From: Xanthomonas maliensis
GTDB taxonomy: Bacteria > Pseudomonadota > Gammaproteobacteria > Xanthomonadales > Xanthomonadaceae
Direction of reading: 5' to 3'
Assembly (NCBI RefSeq): GCF_009192945.1
Contig: NZ_NSET01000055.1
Span: 1 to 64,000 of the forward strand
DNA: 64,000 bases
The notes under the pieces: generated by a model
What the model saw: the letters and a program-made list of their open reading frames with translations, nothing else
Database searches by the model: none
What the model was told of the DNA's origin: nothing
Part shown: positions 1 through 18,579 of the stretch, one piece after another
How the letters are laid out: each line of letters opens with the position of its first letter
Numbering within the stretch: position 1 is the stretch's first letter
Position numbers and translations under genes: made by a program

Positions 1-426
1 CGGAAGCCTCATGTACCACGCGTACACTGCGGTTCCTGCGCGCCGTCCACGCCCACCTGGCGGCTGCTCGCTACGTTTTGTTGGCCGCTCTAAATTCAGC
101 GCGTGATCGACCGGTGCGCCGCGCAAGGCGGCGTACTGGTGCGCAGGTGGGCGAACGGCCGTGGATCGGGCGCGCGGATGGCGTCATGCGATCGCTGTCT
201 CGACGTCGTTGCAGGCGTCATCGCATCGATGCCGGTGTGCGGCACACGAGCCACCAGCTGCGGTGCCGCAGCAGGTGCCGCTGCAACGATGAGTTCGCTT
301 GCGCGGCGCATTGCGTCGTTGCGGTCGCCTGTCCGTGCGCGGGCGTACTGCCGTATTGCGCTGCGGCATGGCAAAATGCCGGCTCTCTCTTCCCCCAGTT
401 CCCTGCAGGATCGCAAGGACGTTTGC
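1..426. other. window start, no supported gene
   Basis: No reading frame here is convincing. Plus-strand frames stay open from the window edge to about 93 or 106 but have no start inside the window, so the 3' end of a gene or a repeat fragment lying mostly outside cannot be excluded. The rest is GC-rich sequence whose overlapping open frames on both strands look like base-composition artefacts. The last part should hold the promoter of the gene starting at 427. Confidence 0.3.
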
Positions 427-5359: not shown

Positions 5360-6235
5360 TCAGTTGGGCGCGATCGTGGGTTCGGCAAGCTGGTGCGGAT
5401 TCTCGGCGCGGGGCCAGATCGGACGCGTCAGCTTGCGATACCGGGTGTGGCGCGGATCGGAAGGATAGGGGGCACCGGCATTGATATAGATCACGTCGGC
5501 GGCCATCGGCGCGAACGCCGCGTGGAAGTGATTGGTCGACTTGACCAGCAGCAGCGACTTGCCGGCAATGTCCACGCCTTGGTTGGAGAAGGCGTCCGGC
5601 GAATAGGTCTGGGCGCGGTGCGAGCTCAGCACCACATCGATCTGGGTGCCGCACACGCGCACGGTGGCCGAGCTGCCCAACGGCACGCGGCTGTCGCCGA
5701 AGCTCTGCCAGGCGTCGTCGGACAGCGCCAGGACCTGCACGTCCGCATCGATGGGTGCACCAGCGGTGGGGCCGCATTTGCCGCCAAACCGCAGCGCCAA
5801 CTGCGCGCCGACGCCGGCGGCGTGGCAGAACGAGACTGCGACCGGGTCCCACAGCGGAGCCAGCGCCAGGTTGTCGATGCCGCGTTCGATCATGCGGTGC
5901 AGGATCAAGGTCCCGTCTCCGGCCACTCCGCCGCCCGGGTTGTCCCACACGTCGGCGACCACCACCGGTCGGTCCGGTGCAGCGGCCACCGCTTGCAGTG
6001 CCAGGTCCAGGCCGGCGTCGATGCCGTATTGACGCATCATGGTGCGGCCACGCAGCGCGTACAGTCCCCGTCCCAATGTTTGCGCCAGTTGCTGTCCCTG
6101 TGCCTGCGCGTCGTCGGTGACGACCAATAGTTGCGTGCCCATGTCGGGAACGTCGCCAGCCATGAAGCCGTGGATCACCGAGATCGACAGGATGCGGTCG
6201 TGGCCCTGCAATTGCTTGATGTATCCCAGGCGCAA
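5360..6235 (-). pseudogene. MlrC-like M81 metallopeptidase, 5'-truncated
   Basis: The 291-residue frame matches the C-terminal half of the MlrC (microcystinase C / M81) family: ISVIHGFMAGDVPDMGTQLL, then VVVADVWDNPGGGVAGDGT and the MlrC C-terminal domain ending near SLLLVKSTNHFHAAFAP. Family members are usually close to 490-500 residues and begin with a roughly 200-residue domain that is absent here. The frame begins directly at the A/T-tract of the gcvP terminator and its only start there is a TTG inside that tract, so the 5' end looks deleted. No ribosome binding site is evident. The remaining frame is intact and has coding character, so the loss may be recent or a shortened protein may still be made. 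Confidence 0.75.
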
Positions 6236-6292: not shown

Positions 6293-9196
<2,904 letters not shown>

Positions 9197-9300
9197 GGCG
9201 GGCATCCGGAGCAGAGGGCATGCGAAAGGTCGGAAGCACCACGACCGGTATGACGCGCATGCGCGCGCCACGACCTGCCGCAGCGGCGGTCTTCCTCGCG

Positions 9301-9482
9301 CCCCTCTGTCCTTTTGCCTGAGAGTTTAGGAACGCGGCATGGCACCTGGCCTGCCTGCATTCCGTGCCCCTTCGGCGCCGGCCGCGGCCGGTCTCTCCAG
9401 AGTTGTGTTGAAGATGGTATCGGGCCTGAGCGATTACGGGCTGTTGCGCCTTCGGCAGCGGCAGTGCCGCTTCTCCCACCGT
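9301..9482 (-). promoter_or_regulatory. tandem glycine riboswitch
   Basis: Read on the minus strand, two glycine-aptamer cores follow each other. Aptamer 1 (about 9482-9423) contains GGGAGAAGCGG, GCCGAAGGCGCAACAGCCC and AATCGCTCAGGC. A short linker follows. Aptamer 2 (about 9402-9301) contains CTCTGGAGAGACCGG, GCCGAAGGGGC and the hallmark ACTCTCAGGCAAAAGGACAG. This arrangement matches the cooperative two-aptamer class upstream of gcv genes. The expression platform would be the 105 nt before gcvP. Its switching mode cannot be read with confidence. Confidence 0.93.
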
Positions 9483-9487
9483 GTTGC

Positions 9488-9504
9488 CTGGCTAGTATAG
9501 CCAG
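9488..9504 (-). promoter_or_regulatory. gcvP promoter -10 inside a palindrome
   Basis: The minus strand carries TATACT (9499-9494), a near-consensus -10 box placed so that transcription would begin just before the riboswitch. It sits inside a palindrome, CTGGCTA-gta-TAGCCAG, which could be a repressor site or chance. The -35 region (TTCGCC, 18-nt spacing) is weak. Confidence 0.5.
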
Positions 9505-9662
9505 CGCCCGGCCGCTTGGCGAAACGCTGCGCGGCGCCATGAACCGCCAGAGACCGGGCGAGGCGCCTCGTCCGGTCTCCGGGTCCTAAGGGGGCGCTGT
9601 CCCCCCGCTACCGGGTGGTCCGGCAACGGCAGCGCCCGCTCGCTCCTGCAAGCGCAGGCGGT

Positions 9663-9851
9663 TCAGTGGTGTCCGCCGTTGGACGGCGGCGGTGGCGGGT
9701 TGTGGCGGTCGTTCGCGCCCGGCGGGGGATAGTCCCCACCGCCGACATGCTTCCACAGACGCTGGTCCAGGGGCTCCAGCCGGCCCTTGGCCCCGGCGGG
9801 CCGCTGCAGCGATTGCGCGCCATAGGTTGGCGATTTCTTCGACAGGTTCAT
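9663..9851 (-). CDS. raxX: RaxX, precursor of a tyrosine-sulfated PSY-mimic peptide
   Basis: A 62-residue precursor recognised by its core WKHVGGGDYPPPGANDRHNP (residues 33-52). RaxX of X. oryzae pv. oryzae has HVGGGDYPPPGANPKHDPPPR, in which Tyr41 is sulfated by RaxST; Tyr is also residue 41 here. The N-terminal part (MNLSKKSPTYGAQSLQRPAG...) is the leader, and the glycines at 37-39 provide the double-glycine type site expected for the C39 peptidase of RaxB. Pro44 is kept, but residue 48 is Asp rather than Pro. The C-terminus is proline-rich, then SNGGHH. The ATG at 9851 follows GAGAGGA. It is divergent from raxST across 423 bp. The mature peptide mimics plant PSY hormones and activates rice XA21. 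Confidence 0.93.
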   Translation of the reverse strand: MNLSKKSPTYGAQSLQRPAGAKGRLEPLDQRLWKHVGGGDYPPPGANDRHNPPPPPSNGGHH

Positions 9852-10274
9852 GTTGACGTCCTCTCAGGTTGTGCCCTTCGTACGCAGCGTCACGCCGCCC
9901 GAAGGGACGACTGCGTGACCGCCTCGGCCATCTGCCCGGTGGCCGGTGAGACGACAGTGGTCGCTGGACCGCAGAGCCGGGCACAGGACCATGCGATCCA
10001 GCGTGCGCGGGTGCCGTTGCGACCCAGGGCCGGCGCACGATGGTGTGTGCGCGGTAGCGAACGTCGCATCCGCCAGGTCCATGCCGGTACGCGGCGATGT
10101 GATGCCGGTCACCGCAAGCGCTCCCGACCGCCCAGGCGGATCGCTGGCATTCGCATAGCGCAGCGCCTTTGCGCAGCGTGTCTGCATGTGCCGTGGCGCA
10201 CGATGCAGGCTTGGCTGGCGATGCGTCTCGCCGGCATGCCGCCGCCGACCGACATCGGACAGGGGAGGCGCGCG
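9852..10274. promoter_or_regulatory. divergent raxX / raxSTAB intergenic region
   Basis: A 423-bp gap separates the starts of raxX (minus) and raxST (plus) and must hold both promoters. Open frames run through it, partly in frame with raxST, but without conserved content or a ribosome binding site. I see no clear sigma-70 boxes. The inverted pair CCCTTCGT / GAAGGGAC near 9879-9906 could be part of a control site. Confidence 0.45.
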
Positions 10275-11078
10275 GTGAACTACCATTTCATTTCCGGGCT
10301 GCCGCGGGCGGGCTCGTCCTTGCTGGCCGCGTTGCTGCGACAGAACCCGCACGTGCACGCCGATGTCACCTCGCCGGTCGCGCGACTGTACGCGGCGATG
10401 CTGATGGGCATGAGCGAGGAACATCCCTCCAACGTGCAGATCGACGACGCACAGCGGGTGCGGCTGCTGCGTTCGGTATTCGACGCCTATTACCAGGATC
10501 GCCAGGGGCTGGGCACGGTGTTCGACACCAACCGCGCCTGGTGCAGCCGCCTGACGGGTCTGGCGACGCTGTTTCCGCACAGCCGCGTCATCTGTTGCGT
10601 CCGCGATGTCGGCTGGGTCGTCGATAGCTTCGAGCGCCTGGCGCAGACCCAGCCACTGCGCTTGTCGGCGTTGTTCGGCTACGACCCGGAAGACTCGGTC
10701 TCGCTGCGCGCGGACCTGCTGACCGCACCGCGCGGCGTGGTGGGCTATGCGCTGGATGGGCTGCGCCAGGCGTTCTACGGCGAACATGCCGATCGCCTGC
10801 TGCTGTTGCGCTACGACACGCTGGCGCAGCGGCCGGCGCAGGCGATGGAGCAGATCTACGCCTTCCTGCAACTGCCGGCGTTCGCGCACGACTATGCCGA
10901 TGTCCAGGCCGAGGCCGAACGCTTCGATGCCGCGCTGCAGATGCCGGGCCTGCATCGCGTCCGTCGCGGGGTGCAGTACGTCCCCCGGCGCAGCGTATTG
11001 CCGCCGGCGCTGTTCGAACGCTTGCAGGAGCTGGCCTTCTGGGAACGCGGGCCCTCGCAGGGAGCCCTGCTGGTATGA
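10275..11078 (+). CDS. raxST: RaxST tyrosine sulfotransferase
   Basis: PAPS-dependent sulfotransferase that sulfates Tyr41 of RaxX in the cytoplasm before export. The 267-residue protein starts VNYHFISGLPRAGSSLLAAL, where GLPRAGSSLL (residues 8-17) is the 5'-phosphosulfate-binding loop. VICCVRDVGWVVDSFERL near residue 100 is the 3'-phosphate-binding region. The sequence closely follows known RaxST throughout. The GTG at 10275 is supported by AGGGGAGG 6 nt upstream and by the family N-terminus; the longer open frame upstream is not conserved sequence. It leads raxST-raxA-raxB, with the raxA start 100 bp after its stop. Confidence 0.95.
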   Translation: MNYHFISGLPRAGSSLLAALLRQNPHVHADVTSPVARLYAAMLMGMSEEHPSNVQIDDAQRVRLLRSVFDAYYQDRQGLGTVFDTNRAWCSRLTGLATLFPHSRVICCVRDVGWVVDSFERLAQTQPLRLSALFGYDPEDSVSLRADLLTAPRGVVGYALDGLRQAFYGEHADRLLLLRYDTLAQRPAQAMEQIYAFLQLPAFAHDYADVQAEAERFDAALQMPGLHRVRRGVQYVPRRSVLPPALFERLQELAFWERGPSQGALLV

Positions 11079-11178
11079 GCAGGCGCGTGGCGTGGCAGCG
11101 CACGGCGGCGCGGCAGCGGCGGCACCGAGCAGGCGGGCAGCATGGGCGGCAGGGGCGGGCGTCGGTGGCCGCTGGCGG

Positions 11179-12417
11179 ATGACGACCCTGTTCCGACGCG
11201 AGGCGATGGACTACCGGCAGCGCAGTCGGCTCGGGCCGGTGGTGCTGCGCCAGCATGGCGCGCTGCGTTGGTGCGTCGGCCTGCTGATGGCGACCGTGAT
11301 CCTGCTGCTGGTCGGATTCTTCCGCCTGGGCTTCGCCCGTAGCGAGACCTTGTATGGCACGCTCGTGCCGGCGGGCGGACTGATCGCCGTCACCACACCG
11401 CAGTCGGGCGTGGTGGTGCAGGTCGGCGCCGTGCAGGGCCAGCGCGTCGCTGCGGGCCAGCTGCTGTTCGTGTTGTCGGCCGAGCATCGCGACGATCGCG
11501 GGCGGCCGACCCAGCGCGCTGCTGCGGTGCTGGCCGAACAGCAGCGCCTGGCCGTCGAGGCGATGGCGCAGCTGCGTGACCAGGGGCGCGTGCAGCAGCA
11601 GGCGGCTGCGCGGGCGCTGGCCGGCCTGCGCGATCGCCTGCAGCAGATCGACGCTGAGCTGGACTTGCTGCGCCATCGGCAGCAGCTGACCCAATCGATC
11701 GAGCAGCGTTACCGCACCGCGCTGACGCGCGGCCTGGTCAGTCAGCAATTCGTCGACGAGAAGCAGGCCGACGTGCTTGACCAGCGCGCGCATACCCTGG
11801 AGCTGCAGCGCGAGCGCATGGCCTTGGCCGATGCGCTTGCGCAGGCCCAGGCCGAAGTGCAGCAATTACCGTCGAGCTTGCGCCAACAATTGGCGGTGGC
11901 CGGTGCCGGCTTGCAGGAGGATCGGCGTGCGGCGATCGAGCAGGCGGCCGCGTCGCGTTGGGAAGTGCGCGCGCCGCGTGCCGGGCGGGTGGCGCTGCGA
12001 CCGCTGCAGATCGGCCAGGCGGTCGCGCAGGGGCAACGCCTGGCCGATCTGCTGCCGACGTCGATGGCGACCGAGGTCGTGTTGTATGCGCCCTCCCGGG
12101 CCGCCGGGCTGATTGGGCCCGGGATGCCGGTGCAACTGCGCTTCGATGCCTTGCCCTACCAGCACTACGGTCAGTTTGCCGGGCGGGTGGTCGAGATCGC
12201 CGCCGCGCCCGAGCCGCCGCGTGTCGATTCCACGTCGGGGAGCGAACCGTTGTACCGCGTGCGGGTGCGCCTGGCCGGGGATGCCGCGCTGCGTGCAGGA
12301 CGCACCGCGGTCCTGCGGCCAGGCATGCGCGTGCAGGGCTCGCTGCCATTGGAATGGCGACGTTTCTCGCAGTGGGCGTTCGAGCCGCTGTCCAGTTTGC
12401 ACGGCACGCTGCGATGA
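11179..12417 (+). CDS. raxA: RaxA, membrane-fusion protein of the RaxX exporter
   Basis: HlyD-type periplasmic adaptor linking the inner-membrane transporter RaxB to a TolC-family outer-membrane channel, which is not encoded here. Of 412 residues, about 26-50 form a single transmembrane anchor (RWCVGLLMATVILLLVGFF). Next come the first half of a lipoyl/barrel-sandwich domain (SGVVVQVGAVQGQRVAAGQL), a long Gln/Leu/Arg-rich coiled-coil hairpin (about 120-260), the second lipoyl half (VRAPRAGRVALRP), and beta-barrel segments to the C-terminus. The ATG at 11179 is the first ATG in frame; its ribosome binding site is weak. The stop overlaps the raxB start (ATGA), suggesting coupled translation. 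Confidence 0.93.
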   Translation: MTTLFRREAMDYRQRSRLGPVVLRQHGALRWCVGLLMATVILLLVGFFRLGFARSETLYGTLVPAGGLIAVTTPQSGVVVQVGAVQGQRVAAGQLLFVLSAEHRDDRGRPTQRAAAVLAEQQRLAVEAMAQLRDQGRVQQQAAARALAGLRDRLQQIDAELDLLRHRQQLTQSIEQRYRTALTRGLVSQQFVDEKQADVLDQRAHTLELQRERMALADALAQAQAEVQQLPSSLRQQLAVAGAGLQEDRRAAIEQAAASRWEVRAPRAGRVALRPLQIGQAVAQGQRLADLLPTSMATEVVLYAPSRAAGLIGPGMPVQLRFDALPYQHYGQFAGRVVEIAAAPEPPRVDSTSGSEPLYRVRVRLAGDAALRAGRTAVLRPGMRVQGSLPLEWRRFSQWAFEPLSSLHGTLR

Positions 12418-14570
12418 GCCGCTGGTGGGCGCAGTTGCGCCGAGCGTCCGGCGTGCGTGCGTTGCCGATGATCCTGCAGGGGCAAGTCGGCGAATGCGGA
12501 TTGGCGGCCATGGCCATGATCGCCCACTATCACGGTTGCCACATCGGCCTGGCCGAACTGCGCCGCCGGTTCCTGCTGTCGCGGCAGGGCACCAACCTGG
12601 CCAATCTGGTCGCGATCGCGCAGGCGCTCGGTCTGCAGGCGCGCGCGTTGCGGCTGGAAATGGAAGCGCTGCCGGAGTTGCAGCTGCCCTGCATCGTGCA
12701 TTGGGATCTCAATCATTTCGTCGTGCTCAAGCGGGTGGGCGCCCGTCGTCTGCAGATCCACGATCCGGCCAGCGGGCCACGGAGCCTGACGCCGGGCGAA
12801 TTCGCTCGCCATTTCTCCGGGATCGCGCTGGAACTCAGCCCGGCCGCGGACTTCCGTCCGCACGCTGCGGCGCCGGCAGTGGCGTTGTCCTCGTTGATCG
12901 GTCGCGTCCACGGACTTGGACGGGCGGTGTGGCAGGTGCTTGCGTTGGCATTCGCGCTCGAGGTGCTCAGCCTGGGGATGCCGTTCCAACTGCAGTGGAT
13001 CGTCGATCAGGCGCTGCCGTCGGCCGACATCGGGTTGATCCATGTCCTTGGCGCCGGGTTCCTGTTGCTGGTGGTCCTGCAATCCTGCATCGCCCTGCTG
13101 CGCGGATGGCTGATCGCCAGCGTGTCGGCCCAGCTCGGCTTTCAATGGATGGGACAGGTGTTCGCGCACCTGCTCGCGCTGCCGTTGGCGTATTTCGAGA
13201 AGCGTCACCTCGGCGGCATCCAGTCGCGCTTCGCCTCGATCGCGCAGGTGCAACGCACCTTGACCACCGGATTCACCCAGACCCTGGTCGATGGCGTGCT
13301 GGTGATCGGCACCCTCGGCCTGATGCTGGTCTACAGCGTCGGCCTCAGCGCGATTACGCTGGTGGCGGTCGCGCTGTATGCGGCGACACGGTGGCTGTGG
13401 CTGCGGCGGATGCGCGAAGCCGCCGCCGAGCAGTTGTTGTGGGATGCGCGCCAGCACACCCACCTGCTGGAGAGCGTGCGTGGCATCCAAGGCGTGCGGC
13501 TGTTCGGTCGCCAGCAGGTGCGGCGCATGGACTGGACCCATCTGCTGGCCGAACAGACCAATGCACAACTGCGCCTGGCGCAGGGCGAGGTCTGGCAGTC
13601 GTCACTCAAGCGCCTGCTGTTCGGATGCGAGCGGGTGCTGGTGATCTGGCTCGCCGCGTTCGCGATCCTGCGCGCAGAGCTTTCGCTGGGCATGCTGCTG
13701 GCCTTCATGGCCTATCGCGAGCAGTTCGCCATGCGCTTGTCCGAGCTGATCGATCGGCTGGTGGAGTTCCGCCTGTTGCGCGTCCATCTGGAGCGGGTGG
13801 CCGATATCGTCCACCAGCCGCGCGAGGAGGCCGATCAGCGCATCGATGCACCGGTCTGGAATGACACCACCATCGAACTGTGCGGCATCGGCTTCCGCTA
13901 CGCCGACGATACCCCAGCGGTGCTCGAAGACGTCAGTGTGCGCATCGCCAGCGGGGAATGCGTGGCCATCACCGGCGCGTCCGGGTGCGGCAAAACCACC
14001 TTGGTCAAGGTGATCCTCGGGCTGCTGAAACCCAGCGCCGGGCACGTGAAGATCGGCGGGCGCCCGCTGAGCGAGGCGGCGTTGACGCACTATCGCGCCA
14101 TCGTCGGCACGGTGATGCAGGACGATCTGCTGTTCACCGGATCGGTCAGCGAAAACATCAGTTTCTTCGACCCGGAGCCGGATCAGGCGCAGATCGAACG
14201 TTGCGCGCGCATCGCCGGCGTGCACCAGGAGGTGGAGCAGATGCCGCTGGGCTACGCCTCGTTGTTGAGCGAGGCGGGCACCGGGTTGTCGGGCGGGCAG
14301 CGGCAGCGCGTCCTGCTGGCGCGCGCGCTGTACAGGTCGCCGCGCATCCTGGTGCTGGACGAGGCCACCAGCCATCTGGACGTCATGAATGAGCAGCGCG
14401 TCAATCGCGCCATCCAGGCCATGCAGGTCACCCGGATCATCGTGGCGCATCGGCGCGAAACCGTGGCCATGGCCGCGCGCGTCATCACCCTGGAACGGGG
14501 ACGGGTGGTGAGCGATCAGCCGATCGCCGATTGGCAGCGGCTGCAGGAGCGCTCCGCTGCAGCCGACTGA
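12414..14570 (+). CDS. raxB: RaxB, peptidase-containing ABC transporter
   Basis: Bacteriocin-type ABC exporter of 718 residues that should cut the RaxX leader at its glycine site and export the mature sulfated peptide. The N-terminal C39 peptidase domain (about 18-140) has the catalytic Cys28 in QGQVGECGLAAMAM, the His in DLNHFVVLKR and the Asp in IHDPASG. A six-helix transmembrane domain follows (about 165-440). The nucleotide-binding domain has Walker A GASGCGKTT, the signature LSGGQRQR and Walker B ILVLDEATSHLD. All catalytic motifs are intact. The start overlaps the raxA stop by 4 nt. Confidence 0.95.
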   Translation: MSRWWAQLRRASGVRALPMILQGQVGECGLAAMAMIAHYHGCHIGLAELRRRFLLSRQGTNLANLVAIAQALGLQARALRLEMEALPELQLPCIVHWDLNHFVVLKRVGARRLQIHDPASGPRSLTPGEFARHFSGIALELSPAADFRPHAAAPAVALSSLIGRVHGLGRAVWQVLALAFALEVLSLGMPFQLQWIVDQALPSADIGLIHVLGAGFLLLVVLQSCIALLRGWLIASVSAQLGFQWMGQVFAHLLALPLAYFEKRHLGGIQSRFASIAQVQRTLTTGFTQTLVDGVLVIGTLGLMLVYSVGLSAITLVAVALYAATRWLWLRRMREAAAEQLLWDARQHTHLLESVRGIQGVRLFGRQQVRRMDWTHLLAEQTNAQLRLAQGEVWQSSLKRLLFGCERVLVIWLAAFAILRAELSLGMLLAFMAYREQFAMRLSELIDRLVEFRLLRVHLERVADIVHQPREEADQRIDAPVWNDTTIELCGIGFRYADDTPAVLEDVSVRIASGECVAITGASGCGKTTLVKVILGLLKPSAGHVKIGGRPLSEAALTHYRAIVGTVMQDDLLFTGSVSENISFFDPEPDQAQIERCARIAGVHQEVEQMPLGYASLLSEAGTGLSGGQRQRVLLARALYRSPRILVLDEATSHLDVMNEQRVNRAIQAMQVTRIIVAHRRETVAMAARVITLERGRVVSDQPIADWQRLQERSAAAD

Positions 14571-14849
14571 TCGCTGGCGTTGGTCCACTGGCGCCGAGCA
14601 CGGCCGGCGCCGTCATTGCCGGATGCGCAGCCGCTCGGCTGGGCAGGATGACCATGCCGTGCTAGGACGAAGCGGGCGCGACGGCGATTGCGTGTCCGCG
14701 TGCCGCGCATGCGCTCCATCGCTGGGCGCATGCGGTGGCAGTTGGCGTAAAGTGTCGGCTTCTTTGCCCCCGTGCCTGCCGCTGCGGTCGTTGGCCTGAG
14801 CGCCGCTGCCGGTGCCAGCGCGTGGGGAGTCCTCCGGATACCGTTGCGC

Positions 14850-16103
14850 ATGACTTCTGCTGTTCCCTCCACCCGTCGCATGGCGCTGCTGCTGGCAGGC
14901 CTGTCGATGTTCGGTCCCTTCTCGATCGACACCATCTTCCCGGCGTTCTCACAGCTGAGTCGTCGGTTGGCGGTGGACGAAGTGGCGATCCAGCAGACCA
15001 TCAGCGTCTACCTGCTCGCCTATGGGCTGATGAGCCTGGCGCACGGGCCGCTATCGGATGCCTGGGGCCGCAAGCGGGTGATCCTGGGCGGGCTGTTGCT
15101 GTTCGTTGCCGGCTCGATTGGCTGCGCGCTGTCGCGCGATCTGCCCACGCTACTGGCCTTTCGCGCGCTGCAGGGCTTGTCGGCCGGGGTCGGGATGATC
15201 GTCGGCCGCGCGGTGATCCGCGACCTGTTCCAGGGCCACGATGCGCAGCGGCTGATGAGCCAGGTGTCGATGATCTTCGGCATCGCCCCGGCCATCGCGC
15301 CGATCATCGGCGGTTGGCTGTTGCTCACCGGTGCTGGCTGGCCGCTGATCTTCTGGTTCCTGACCGGCTTTGCCGTCGTGCTGACGCTGACCACGTTGAT
15401 CTGGCTGCCGGAAACCCACCCGCCGCAGGCGCGCACGGCGCTGCGCCCAGGCCGGCTGTTGCGCGACTACGTGCGGATCGGCTTCAACCCGCGCTTCCAG
15501 CGGCTGGCCGCCGCCGGCGCCTTCAACTTCGCCGGGATCTTCCTCTACATCGCCTCGGCGCCGGTGCTGATCATGGGGCATCTAAAGCTGGGCGAGGGCG
15601 ATTTCGCCTGGTTGTTCGTGCCCACCATCGGCGGCATGACCCTGGGCTCGTTCCTGTCCGGCCGCATGGCCGGGCGCATCGAGCCGGTGCGGCAGATCCG
15701 CATCGGCTTCATCTGCTGCGGGGTGGCCGCAGTGGTCAATCTGGCCTATACGTTCGTGGTGACGCAGATCGCGTTGCCGTGGGCAGTGTTGCCGATCTTC
15801 CTGGCCGGGCTGGGGATGGCATTGATCTTCCCGATCCTGGCGCTGGCGGTGCTGGACATGTACCCGCAGCAGCGGGGTCTGGCGTCGTCGCTGCAGGCGT
15901 TCACGCAGTTGATGACCAATACGCTGGTGGCCGGGGTGCTGTCGCCGCTGCTCAGCACCGACCCCCACCATCTGGCGCTCGGGATGGCCGGTTTTTTTCT
16001 GTTGGGATGGCTATTCTGGCGGTGGGAGCGCCGCAGCGGCCGCCGCCTGCGACGGCAGCAGGCGGCCGAGGCGATGCCGGTCGAGCCGGCCGCCCATCTT
16101 TGA
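14850..16103 (+). CDS. mfsX: MFS drug-efflux transporter (Bcr/CflA type)
   Basis: A 417-residue major-facilitator protein with about 12 membrane helices. The helix 2-3 loop motif GPLSDAWGRKRVIL and the antiporter-like stretch RALQGLSAGVGMIVGRAVIRD place it with the Bcr/CflA drug:H+ antiporters. In published Xanthomonas maps an MFS gene called mfsX borders raxSTAB on this side. It is considered a flanking gene rather than part of the RaxX pathway. The ATG at 14850 precedes a short polar N-terminus and helix 1; another ATG at 14880 is equally possible, as neither has a strong ribosome binding site. The substrate is unknown. Confidence 0.9.
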   Translation: MTSAVPSTRRMALLLAGLSMFGPFSIDTIFPAFSQLSRRLAVDEVAIQQTISVYLLAYGLMSLAHGPLSDAWGRKRVILGGLLLFVAGSIGCALSRDLPTLLAFRALQGLSAGVGMIVGRAVIRDLFQGHDAQRLMSQVSMIFGIAPAIAPIIGGWLLLTGAGWPLIFWFLTGFAVVLTLTTLIWLPETHPPQARTALRPGRLLRDYVRIGFNPRFQRLAAAGAFNFAGIFLYIASAPVLIMGHLKLGEGDFAWLFVPTIGGMTLGSFLSGRMAGRIEPVRQIRIGFICCGVAAVVNLAYTFVVTQIALPWAVLPIFLAGLGMALIFPILALAVLDMYPQQRGLASSLQAFTQLMTNTLVAGVLSPLLSTDPHHLALGMAGFFLLGWLFWRWERRSGRRLRRQQAAEAMPVEPAAHL

Positions 16104-16120
16104 CCTTATCTGGAGCCTGC

Positions 16121-16522
16121 ATGTCCATCGATTCCAAGTTGCGCCGTGATGCCCGCAAGCGGACCGCCGAGCGCGAGCGCAATCAGGCTACCGCACAGGC
16201 CGTGCCGGCCTCGCCGATCGAACCGCATGCGGAATTGCGCGACCAGCAGCGCACGCTGCTGGCCGGTATCGTGCGCCGCGATGGCGAATGGGTGCTGGGC
16301 ATGGACGGCCGCATCGCCGGCGAAAGCACCAGCGCGGCGCAGGTGCTGGCGCTGATCATGCGCGCGGCCGAGCTGCACGAGCGGCAGGGCACGCCGGTGC
16401 GGCTGACCTACTCGGACGCGCTCAAGGACGCCGCCCATGCCGAAGCGCGCGCCGACGGCATGGAGTTCGAGCAGTTCAAGACCCGGTTGAGCGAGCGCAT
16501 CCAGGGCGCCAAGCCCAACTGA
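16121..16522 (+). CDS. conserved hypothetical cytoplasmic protein
   Basis: I do not recognise a family for this 133-residue protein. The first 35 residues are highly charged (SKLRRDARKRTAERERNQ), then a mixed alpha/beta stretch includes LLAGIVRRDGEWVLGMDGRI and VLALIMRAAELHERQ. There is no signal peptide or membrane segment. GGAG 7 nt before the ATG supports the start. It follows the MFS gene by 17 bp and may be cotranscribed. Its stop converges with the M2 peptidase 29 bp away. The basic N-terminus could contact nucleic acid, but that is a guess. Confidence 0.75.
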   Translation: MSIDSKLRRDARKRTAERERNQATAQAVPASPIEPHAELRDQQRTLLAGIVRRDGEWVLGMDGRIAGESTSAAQVLALIMRAAELHERQGTPVRLTYSDALKDAAHAEARADGMEFEQFKTRLSERIQGAKPN

Positions 16523-16551
16523 CGTGGCGCGCTGCCAACCCCGGGGGCGCG

Positions 16552-18579
16552 TCAGTGGGGTGACGGCGAGGGCGACATTGCCGGGGCGGTCGCTGTCGCG
16601 GTGGCGGGTGCGTCGGTTTGCCAGCCGCACATCCGCCCGTGGTTCTGTTCGACCAGCCAGGCATTGATCGGCGCGAAGTATTCCAGCATCGGGCCGGCAT
16701 CCAGGCGATCGCTGCCGGTCAGCTCCTTCAGCGTGGTCTGCCAGGGCTGGCTGGCGCCCCGTTGCAGCATCGACCAGAACTTCTGCCCGGCCTCCTTGTT
16801 GTCGTAGAAGCTGCAGGCATACAGCGGCCCCTGGTGGCCGGCCGCTGCGCACAGGCCCTTGTAGAACTGGAATTGCAGGATGTGTGCCAGGAAGTAGCGC
16901 GTGTAGGGCGTGTTGCCCGGCACGTGGTACTTGGCGCCGGGGTCGAAGAAGCTCTCGTCGCGCGGCTGCACCGGCGCCACGCCCTGGTAGCGCGCCTTCA
17001 ACTCCCACCAGGCCTGGTTGTAGCGCTCCGGCGGGATCGAGCCGTCGAACACCCCCCAGCGCCAACGGTCGATCATCAGGCCGAACGGCAGGAACGCGAT
17101 CTTGCTCAAGGCCATGCGCATCTGCGCATCGATCAAGGCCTCACGGCCGGCCTGCTGTTCGCCGACCATGCCGATCGACTGCAGATATGCCGGCGTCATC
17201 GCCAAGACGATGGTGTCGCCGATCGCTTCGTGGAAGCCGTCGTTGGCACCGCCCTGGAACAGCGGCGGCAACGGGTTGTAGGCCAGGTCGTAATAGACAT
17301 GGCCGAGCTCGTGGTAGATGGTGGTGAAGTCTTCCTCGGTCGGCTTGATGCACATCTTGGTACGCACGTCCGGGCCGATGCCGCGGCTCGCATCCCCGCC
17401 CAGGTTCATGTCCCAGGCGCTGGCATGACAGACCACGTCGCGGTCCAGCGGCTTGATGAACTGCGAGCGCTGCCAATAGCTGTCCGGCAGCTTGGGCATC
17501 CCCAGCGAGGTGTAGAAGTCCTGCGCCCGCTCGGTCATCTGCCGGGCCGTGCGCAGCTGCGCCTCGCGCTCGGCCAGGAAGCGCGCCTCGGCGCCGCCAG
17601 CGCCGCCATTTGCGCGTGCCAGCGCCGCGCTCAGGTTGCCCTGGTACTGCTTTTCCAGCGCAGCGGTGATGTCCAGATCGCCAGCGCGCGGGTAGGGCTC
17701 CAGCAGATCCCACAGATTGCTCCAGTCCTGCTGCCACATATTGCCCATCAGGTGGGCCGGCAGCAGGCCGCCGGGCAATTCGCCCTTGTCCTGGCCGTAC
17801 TGGGCGTCCAGCTTGCCGCGCGCATAGCACTGCAGCTGCGTGTACAGCGGTTTGACCTGCTCCCACAGCCGGTCGGTTTCGCTGGCCAGTTGCGCTGGCG
17901 GCATGTCGTAGCCGCTGCGCCACATCGCGCCGACGTCGGCAAATCCCAGTCCGCGCGCGCCTTCGTTGGCCAGTTCGACGAAGCGTTGGTAGTCCTTGCG
18001 CATCGGTTGCGCGGTGGCGTGCCAGCCTTGCCAGGCATCCAGTTGCGCGGCGTAGTCGCGGCTGCTGGCCAGCACCTGCTCCAGCTCGCCAAGCTGGCGG
18101 CATTGCCGCTGTTCGCCCTCGCCAACGCAATAACGGCCAGCGCCGTAGTCGCCCTCCATCTTGGCGGCGATGCGGGTCAGCTCGGCCAGCTTGGCCGGGT
18201 CGCGCGGTGCCGGCAGCGCGCTCATCAGTTTCAACAACTGCAGCGCGCGCGCGGTATCGGCCGACATCGGCGTGCCGGTGTACTGTTTGGCCTGGGCGAT
18301 CCAGCCGTCGAGCTGGGCCAGGGCCCGCTCGTTGGCCTTGGCCGCCAGCAACTGCGAGTCGTCGCCGATATAGGTGGACGACAGCCATTGCGCGGCGGTG
18401 GTTTCCGGGTACTGCGCCTTGTACTCGGCGCTGATGCGCGCAACGAACTGGTCGGCGCTTTCGCGCGGGGCCGGCCGCTCGGCGGCAGGCTTGGCGGGCG
18501 GCGCCGCATCCCGGCGGCAGGCCGACAGCGACAGCGTCCCGGCGACGGCAACCGCCAGCAACAACAGACGAAGAGGCAC
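16552..18579 (-). CDS. M2-family peptidyl-dipeptidase (ACE-like) lipoprotein
   Basis: Zinc dipeptidyl carboxypeptidase related to angiotensin-converting enzyme, 675 residues. The N-terminus has a lipoprotein signal (LLLAVAVAGTLSLSAC), so it is probably anchored in the outer membrane facing the periplasm. The zinc site is HELGH at residues 423-427, with the downstream Glu ligand in ANDGFHEAIGDT. Further M2 blocks are VCHASAWDMNL, RTKMCIKPTEEDF and KYHVPGNTPYTRYFLAHILQFQFY. A GTG start is preferred because AAGGA lies 7 nt upstream and it exposes the complete signal. It reads in the same direction as eptA, 107 bp downstream of it. Confidence 0.95.
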   Translation of the reverse strand: MPLRLLLLAVAVAGTLSLSACRRDAAPPAKPAAERPAPRESADQFVARISAEYKAQYPETTAAQWLSSTYIGDDSQLLAAKANERALAQLDGWIAQAKQYTGTPMSADTARALQLLKLMSALPAPRDPAKLAELTRIAAKMEGDYGAGRYCVGEGEQRQCRQLGELEQVLASSRDYAAQLDAWQGWHATAQPMRKDYQRFVELANEGARGLGFADVGAMWRSGYDMPPAQLASETDRLWEQVKPLYTQLQCYARGKLDAQYGQDKGELPGGLLPAHLMGNMWQQDWSNLWDLLEPYPRAGDLDITAALEKQYQGNLSAALARANGGAGGAEARFLAEREAQLRTARQMTERAQDFYTSLGMPKLPDSYWQRSQFIKPLDRDVVCHASAWDMNLGGDASRGIGPDVRTKMCIKPTEEDFTTIYHELGHVYYDLAYNPLPPLFQGGANDGFHEAIGDTIVLAMTPAYLQSIGMVGEQQAGREALIDAQMRMALSKIAFLPFGLMIDRWRWGVFDGSIPPERYNQAWWELKARYQGVAPVQPRDESFFDPGAKYHVPGNTPYTRYFLAHILQFQFYKGLCAAAGHQGPLYACSFYDNKEAGQKFWSMLQRGASQPWQTTLKELTGSDRLDAGPMLEYFAPINAWLVEQNHGRMCGWQTDAPATATATAPAMSPSPSPH

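Follow-up and report, generated by a model that had tools for sequence, protein, structure and literature searches.

Can the raxX-raxSTAB locus of Xanthomonas maliensis yield the sulfated PSY-mimic peptide known from X. oryzae, and how did the locus come to lie where it does? We addressed both questions in a 64,000-nucleotide stretch of the X. maliensis genome (contig NZ_NSET01000055.1 of assembly GCF_009192945.1, positions 1 to 64,000; hereafter the window), part of a 5.2-Mb assembly in 141 contigs. The reading that we favor, to which we assign a probability of roughly 93%, is that the window carries an intact raxX-raxSTAB cluster that would make and export a sulfated mimic of plant PSY peptides, that this peptide should not trigger rice XA21, and that the cluster was imported by homologous recombination. 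Sulfation, cleavage with export, and PSY mimicry are steps established for X. oryzae (PMC8872720). By analogy with that species, HrpX would activate the two divergent promoters through plant-inducible-promoter (PIP) boxes, RaxST would sulfate Tyr41 of the precursor with 3′-phosphoadenosine 5′-phosphosulfate (PAPS), and RaxB, together with RaxA and a TolC-type channel, would cleave the precursor after its double-glycine leader and export the product. That product would be roughly 23 residues long, begin with DYPPPGAND and imitate a plant PSY hormone, and its Asp-48 would leave XA21 untriggered.

An intact raxX-raxSTAB cluster between gcvP and an MFS gene

Four open frames occupy positions 9663..14570: raxX (9663..9851, minus strand) is divergent from raxST (10275..11078), raxA (11179..12417) and raxB (12414..14570), all three on the plus strand, and the set is flanked by gcvP and by a Bcr/CflA-type major facilitator superfamily (MFS) gene. 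The presence of the cluster at this locus is far beyond chance. A preliminary description of the window had claimed a complete cluster at these coordinates between gcvP and an MFS gene, with a 62-codon precursor carrying Tyr at residue 41 and divergent genes for a sulfotransferase, an HlyD-type adaptor and a C39-peptidase ATP-binding cassette (ABC) exporter with its catalytic residues; the frames, domains and residues that we checked agree with it on every one of these points, as they do with its assignment of the genes to the RaxX pathway, and the cluster is already in the literature (PMC6637879).

The 62-residue RaxX precursor matched the curated NCBIfam model NF038382 (RaxX_RiPP) with 114.2 bits (E = 2.5e-33, cut-off 40), with residues 1-59 aligned. 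It has a triple glycine at 37-39, D40 and Y41, followed by PPPGAN, D48, R49 and H50; P44 and P52 are also present. It thus combines a double-glycine leader with a Tyr41 set in a PSY-like core. RaxX of X. oryzae likewise has a double-glycine leader and a mature form that begins at residue 40 (PMC6637879, PMC8872720). By homology, residues 1-39 would form the leader here and residues 40-62 the predicted mature core (DYPPPGAND..., 9666..9734, minus strand), with Tyr41 as the expected sulfation site.

The gene raxST starts with GTG and codes for a tyrosylprotein sulfotransferase of 267 aa (Sulfotransfer_3, 62.5 bits), a length shared by all seven relatives compared. Its product contains all of the RaxST residues named by Liu et al. 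(PMC6637879), namely the PAPS-motif residues R11 and S118 together with H50 and R129, and numbering from the GTG start fits theirs exactly. When the RaxST profile was compared with solved structures, the six best matches were TPST1 and TPST2 chains (E = 3.9e-5 to 0.022), aligned with residues 3-118. RaxA is a 412-aa HlyD-type periplasmic adaptor (HlyD_3, 68.9 bits) whose gene overlaps raxB in an ATGA. RaxB (718 aa) comprises Peptidase_C39, ABC_membrane and ABC_tran domains and, with Q22, the Cys-His-Asp set C28, H101 and D117, Walker A, LSGGQ, Walker B and the H-loop all present, it has the residues of a peptidase-containing ABC exporter. Residues 19-700 of RaxB align with another peptide exporter, PCAT1 (4ry2, E = 3.7e-89), and the Cys, His and Asp positions correspond.

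Three known clusters provide points of reference. X. maliensis M97 has the same gene set at the same site (PMC6637879), and the locus described here is probably that very locus, in which case this copy has already been published. Compared by its published description, the cluster of X. oryzae pv. oryzae PXO99A shows the same architecture, Tyr41, Pro-44, the four RaxST residues and a divergent control region (PMC6637879, PMC8872720), and differs in having Pro-48 where the allele here has Asp-48 (PMC6637879). In X. euvesicatoria ATCC 11633, RaxST is 98% and RaxX 88% identical to the proteins here and RaxST, RaxA and RaxB are of equal length, but RaxX has 59 aa instead of 62, with Thr-48 and a shorter tail.

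A RaxX allele that probably escapes XA21

The preliminary description had also linked the peptide with recognition by rice XA21. It is the common X. oryzae pv. oryzae allele that has this property, which does not extend to the allele of the window. XA21 recognition was reported to require both Pro-44 and Pro-48, and only the group A raxX allele activated XA21 (PMC6637879). The peptide here has Pro-44, but its residue 48 is Asp, and for this reason XA21 is not expected to be triggered. The raxX allele of M97 was itself among those assayed and did not activate XA21 (PMC6637879). From its residues, then, the peptide probably does not trigger rice XA21. The behavior of the M97 allele together with Asp-48 therefore makes PSY mimicry the better reading of the locus, and a plant-hormone (PSY-like) activity of this allele may be inferred by analogy with the seven RaxX variants that promoted root growth in the assays of Liu et al. 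(PMC6637879).

Control region and partner genes

The divergent control region between raxX and raxST (9852..10274) is 423 bp long, compared to 431 bp for its counterpart in X. oryzae pv. oryzae (PMC8872720). It contains a PIP-box-like motif towards raxST (TTCGC-N15-TGCGC, 10150..10174, plus strand) and another towards raxX (TTCGC-N15-ATCGT, 10037..10061, minus strand). We compared the window with the loci of seven relatives, scanning spacers of 14-16 against the PIP consensus. The motif towards raxST occurs at the aligned place in all eight sequences, each of which also has, likewise aligned, an equivalent one-mismatch motif towards raxX; 500 mononucleotide shuffles gave 0.126 matches expected by chance per region. 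In X. oryzae, both promoters are activated by HrpX and each start site has a PIP box ahead of it (PMC8872720), and hrpG and hrpX have been reported in X. maliensis (PMC4468381).

The functions that the pathway would borrow from the rest of the genome are represented as well. We found one APS (adenosine 5′-phosphosulfate) kinase match over cut-off and 11 TolC-family matches, one of them over cut-off at 427 bits, so that the partner and PAPS-synthesis genes proposed as a check in the preliminary description are present. RaxST, RaxA and RaxB are as long as their counterparts in X. euvesicatoria, X. prunicola, X. axonopodis and X. vasicola. Relative to X. euvesicatoria, the ratio of replacement to silent substitution rates (dN/dS) is 0.09 for raxST, 0.13 for raxA, 0.07 for raxB and 0.37 for raxX, the last from only 21 changes. 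The earlier suggestion that this strain can probably make the peptide fits the intact genes, the APS kinase, the TolC-type gene and the low dN/dS of raxST, raxA and raxB.

Is the cluster used, and for what?

Some of these data weigh against a functional PSY mimic. Both PIP-like motifs carry one mismatch to the consensus, and in raxX replacement changes relative to X. euvesicatoria (11.5) outnumber silent ones (9.5). The dN/dS values, moreover, presumably reflect largely the history of the genes before their transfer; the divergence being presumably older than the transfer, they show that the genes arrived intact and are less informative about present use.

The most serious alternative is that the cluster is intact in its sequence but silent or non-functional here, a recently imported passenger. 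The tract does appear to be imported (see below), and X. oryzae field isolates that have lost raxST and/or raxA function were reported (PMC6637879). The host background also favors this alternative. Probing the genome for a type III secretion system (T3SS) through HrcV alone returned no HrcV over cut-off, the sole match to the HrcV model being FlhA (832 bits, under the HrcV cut-off), and the Hrp T3SS is therefore probably absent, as was reported for X. maliensis together with a strongly fragmented assembly (PMC4468381). The same species was described as the only one with all three type VI secretion system (T6SS) clusters (PMC9048695), and the TssK search recovered three TssK genes, counted without assignment to T6SS types; the TssK and HrcV searches thus give the combination of three T6SS clusters and no Hrp T3SS that marks X. 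maliensis. Against a passenger stand the four open frames with their key residues kept, the mostly silent changes of raxST, raxA and raxB, the retained PIP-like motifs and the presence of PAPS and TolC-type genes. We therefore regard a silent cluster as improbable, though it deserves more weight than any other alternative.

A considerably less probable idea is that RaxX has a different role here from PSY mimicry, perhaps as a signal exchanged by bacteria. X. maliensis is described as non-pathogenic on rice, Liu et al. called the selective function of RaxX in Xanthomonas undetermined, and the M97 peptide is not among the strains named in the legend of their root-growth test, Fig. 5 (PMC6637879). 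However, the core here keeps DYPPPGAN, H50 and P52, and every one of the seven variants that were assayed promoted root growth. PSY mimicry thus remains the reading that we prefer.

Probable import of the tract by recombination

Identity to other Xanthomonas changes sharply along the locus. Over raxSTAB it reaches 96.2% to X. prunicola, 95.8% to both X. euvesicatoria and X. phaseoli and 95.2% to X. axonopodis, falling to 92.8% for X. vasicola, 83.8% for X. dyei and 79.4% for X. cucurbitae. In the left flank, identity to the seven named relatives drops to 82.5-84.8% (and is 87.8%, over about half of the stretch, to a genome of the neighbouring genus g7). In the right flank, values for the six named relatives whose sequence extends that far, and for the g7 genome, are 85.4-87.3%. 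For X. euvesicatoria, the contrast is 95.8% over raxSTAB versus 83.5% and 86.6% in the flanks. Homologous recombination best explains the mosaic, the donor being a member of the X. axonopodis/X. euvesicatoria complex, and the cluster was probably acquired from another Xanthomonas. Liu et al. counted X. maliensis as one of six rax lineages and found its rax genes most like those of X. euvesicatoria, pv. manihotis and pv. phaseoli despite a more distant genome (PMC6637879); the contrast reported for M97 is the pattern found here.

Two-state segmentation, with identities set by hand at 0.96 and 0.85, combined with identity by region, delimits a putative recombined tract of about 9 kb (6430..15717) that would contain gcvP, the rax genes and part of the MFS gene. 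Its right edge depends on the relative: 14,466 for X. vasicola, 14,555 for X. prunicola, 14,896 for X. euvesicatoria and X. phaseoli, and 15,717, inside the MFS gene, for X. axonopodis. Five relatives place the left edge at about 6,430-6,660, close to the 3′ end of gcvP (range by relative 6430-7040). This edge is soft, because gcvP is conserved throughout the relatives and a short stretch of high identity occurs there in X. dyei and X. cucurbitae as well. At sites where X. axonopodis differs from six other relatives, the window sides with X. axonopodis at 39 of 53 between 14,800 and 15,700, compared to 3 of 46 in 9,100-14,800 and 0 of 5 in 15,700-16,600, indicating that the MFS part has a best match other than that of the rax genes. 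From the start of the MFS gene through about two thirds of its length (14850-15717), identity to X. axonopodis DSM 3585 rises to as much as 97% per 300 bp, versus 81-89% for the others. This X. axonopodis-like segment reads as the signal of a second donor inside the tract.

Some observations weigh against this reading. Low-identity segments occur inside the tract and no single relative is uniformly close. X. euvesicatoria and X. prunicola are also more alike in rax (95.4%) than in their flanks (87.6% and 93.4%), as are X. euvesicatoria and X. vasicola in rax (92.0%) relative to the left flank (87.8%) but not to the right (93.2%), which would favor vertical inheritance with the high identity due to strong conservation of rax. 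Yet the excess over the flanks is larger here, about 12 and 9 points. Conservation alone is also a poor explanation because, relative to X. euvesicatoria, rax identity lies at or below that of the flanks in X. dyei (83.2% versus 83.6% and 89.7%), X. cucurbitae (79.3% versus 85.7% and 90.0%) and the g7 genome (77.4% versus 86.3% and 86.4%), although X. prunicola and X. vasicola are exceptions and this pattern is no clean rule. Given in addition that X. axonopodis is the only relative that the window matches in the MFS gene as far as 15,717, and that the main X. euvesicatoria matches in a 10-kb part of the window away from the locus (24-34 kb) are 79-88% identical, vertical inheritance is the least credible alternative of all and very improbable.

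Just outside the left edge lies a gene remnant (5360-6235, minus strand) that encodes no more than the C-terminal portion of an M81/MlrC peptidase (MlrC_C, 173 bits). It was found in one of 35 genomes of the genus, that of the host, and had no match in the loci of eight relatives; the import may have truncated this gene. Of the flanking core genes, gcvP (6293..9196, minus strand) shares 96% protein identity with X. euvesicatoria and is preceded by a glycine riboswitch (9296..9410, minus strand; RF00504, 65 bits), and the MFS efflux gene mfsX (14850..16103, plus strand) scores 224.6 bits with TIGR00710, cut-off 200.9. At the start of the window, the Xanthomonas small RNA sX9 lies at 11-86 (plus strand, 93 bits).

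Distribution of rax genes in other genomes

The patchy distribution in Xanthomonas that had been asserted for the cluster is evident from a RaxST profile search, which found the gene in 8 of 35 genomes of the genus and in 2 of 20 of genus g7. Among the genomes with a species name, rax genes are also present in X. euvesicatoria, X. prunicola, X. axonopodis, X. vasicola, X. dyei, X. cucurbitae and X. phaseoli. Of these, X. prunicola, X. dyei and X. cucurbitae appear to stand outside the six lineages of Liu et al. (PMC6637879). Our literature searches returned no paper on raxX in X. dyei or X. prunicola, but did return papers for raxX and cucurbitae. Since the RaxX peptides of X. dyei and X. cucurbitae already score above 100 bits with the NCBI model, these added carriers are hardly a discovery.

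Several relatives have unusual loci. RaxX of X. cucurbitae (locus L036, minus strand, upstream of 9001) is a variant with HVGGGDAPHGGDYPPMEYNKPPRNP, in which extra residues between the triple glycine and DYPP leave two possible Gly-Gly sites and the core is unlike ANxxHDP; the raxST, raxA and raxB genes of this species are open and of normal length. In X. phaseoli ATCC 49119, the raxX and raxST frames are broken in an assembly that is 90% complete, where an assembly error is possible. One g7 genome, tentatively taken for X. translucens, has a complete cluster (RaxST 78%, RaxA 64% and RaxB 75% identity), and a second (G111) has a lone divergent RaxST (50% identity), with no raxX, raxA or raxB match within the surrounding 17 kb; lone raxST homologues were already described by Liu et al. 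(PMC6637879).

A wider RaxX search of 395 family-level genomes found matches with E ≤ 0.01 in 43 genomes, at 46 places. Thirty of these places were examined: RaxX lay beside RaxST at nine, and the other 21, all with E ≥ 0.00125 and without a RaxST match, were taken as chance. The RaxX model matched 3 of 398 genomes at the level of the order, all in the genus of the window, and 2 of 398 at the level of the phylum, one being the host itself and the other a 23.5-bit match, below cut-off and in a frame containing a stop, that we read as chance. A search of plasmid records gave no match for RaxX; RaxST matched 15 plasmid records, all with less than 60% identity.

Implications

The cluster itself is already known; what this analysis adds is where the transfer was joined. 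Recombination within the two flanking genes or beyond them was proposed by Liu et al. (PMC6637879), and the joints placed here, on the right at or inside the MFS gene and on the left near the 3′ end of gcvP, support their proposal of general recombination. Tentatively, and with rather less than even confidence, we suggest that a rice-associated, apparently non-pathogenic Xanthomonas devoid of a T3SS may have imported the entire gcvP-rax-mfsX block by recombination, with the X. axonopodis complex as its source and the joints lying within or next to the two core genes. A resident M81 peptidase gene would have been cut short at one edge, and an HrpX-controlled PSY mimic invisible to XA21 would have been kept. 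If this import and retention were true, RaxX would serve plant colonization without disease. A species that lacks a T3SS but has an intact PSY mimic, to which XA21 should be blind, would be a handy setting in which to study roles of RaxX beyond disease.

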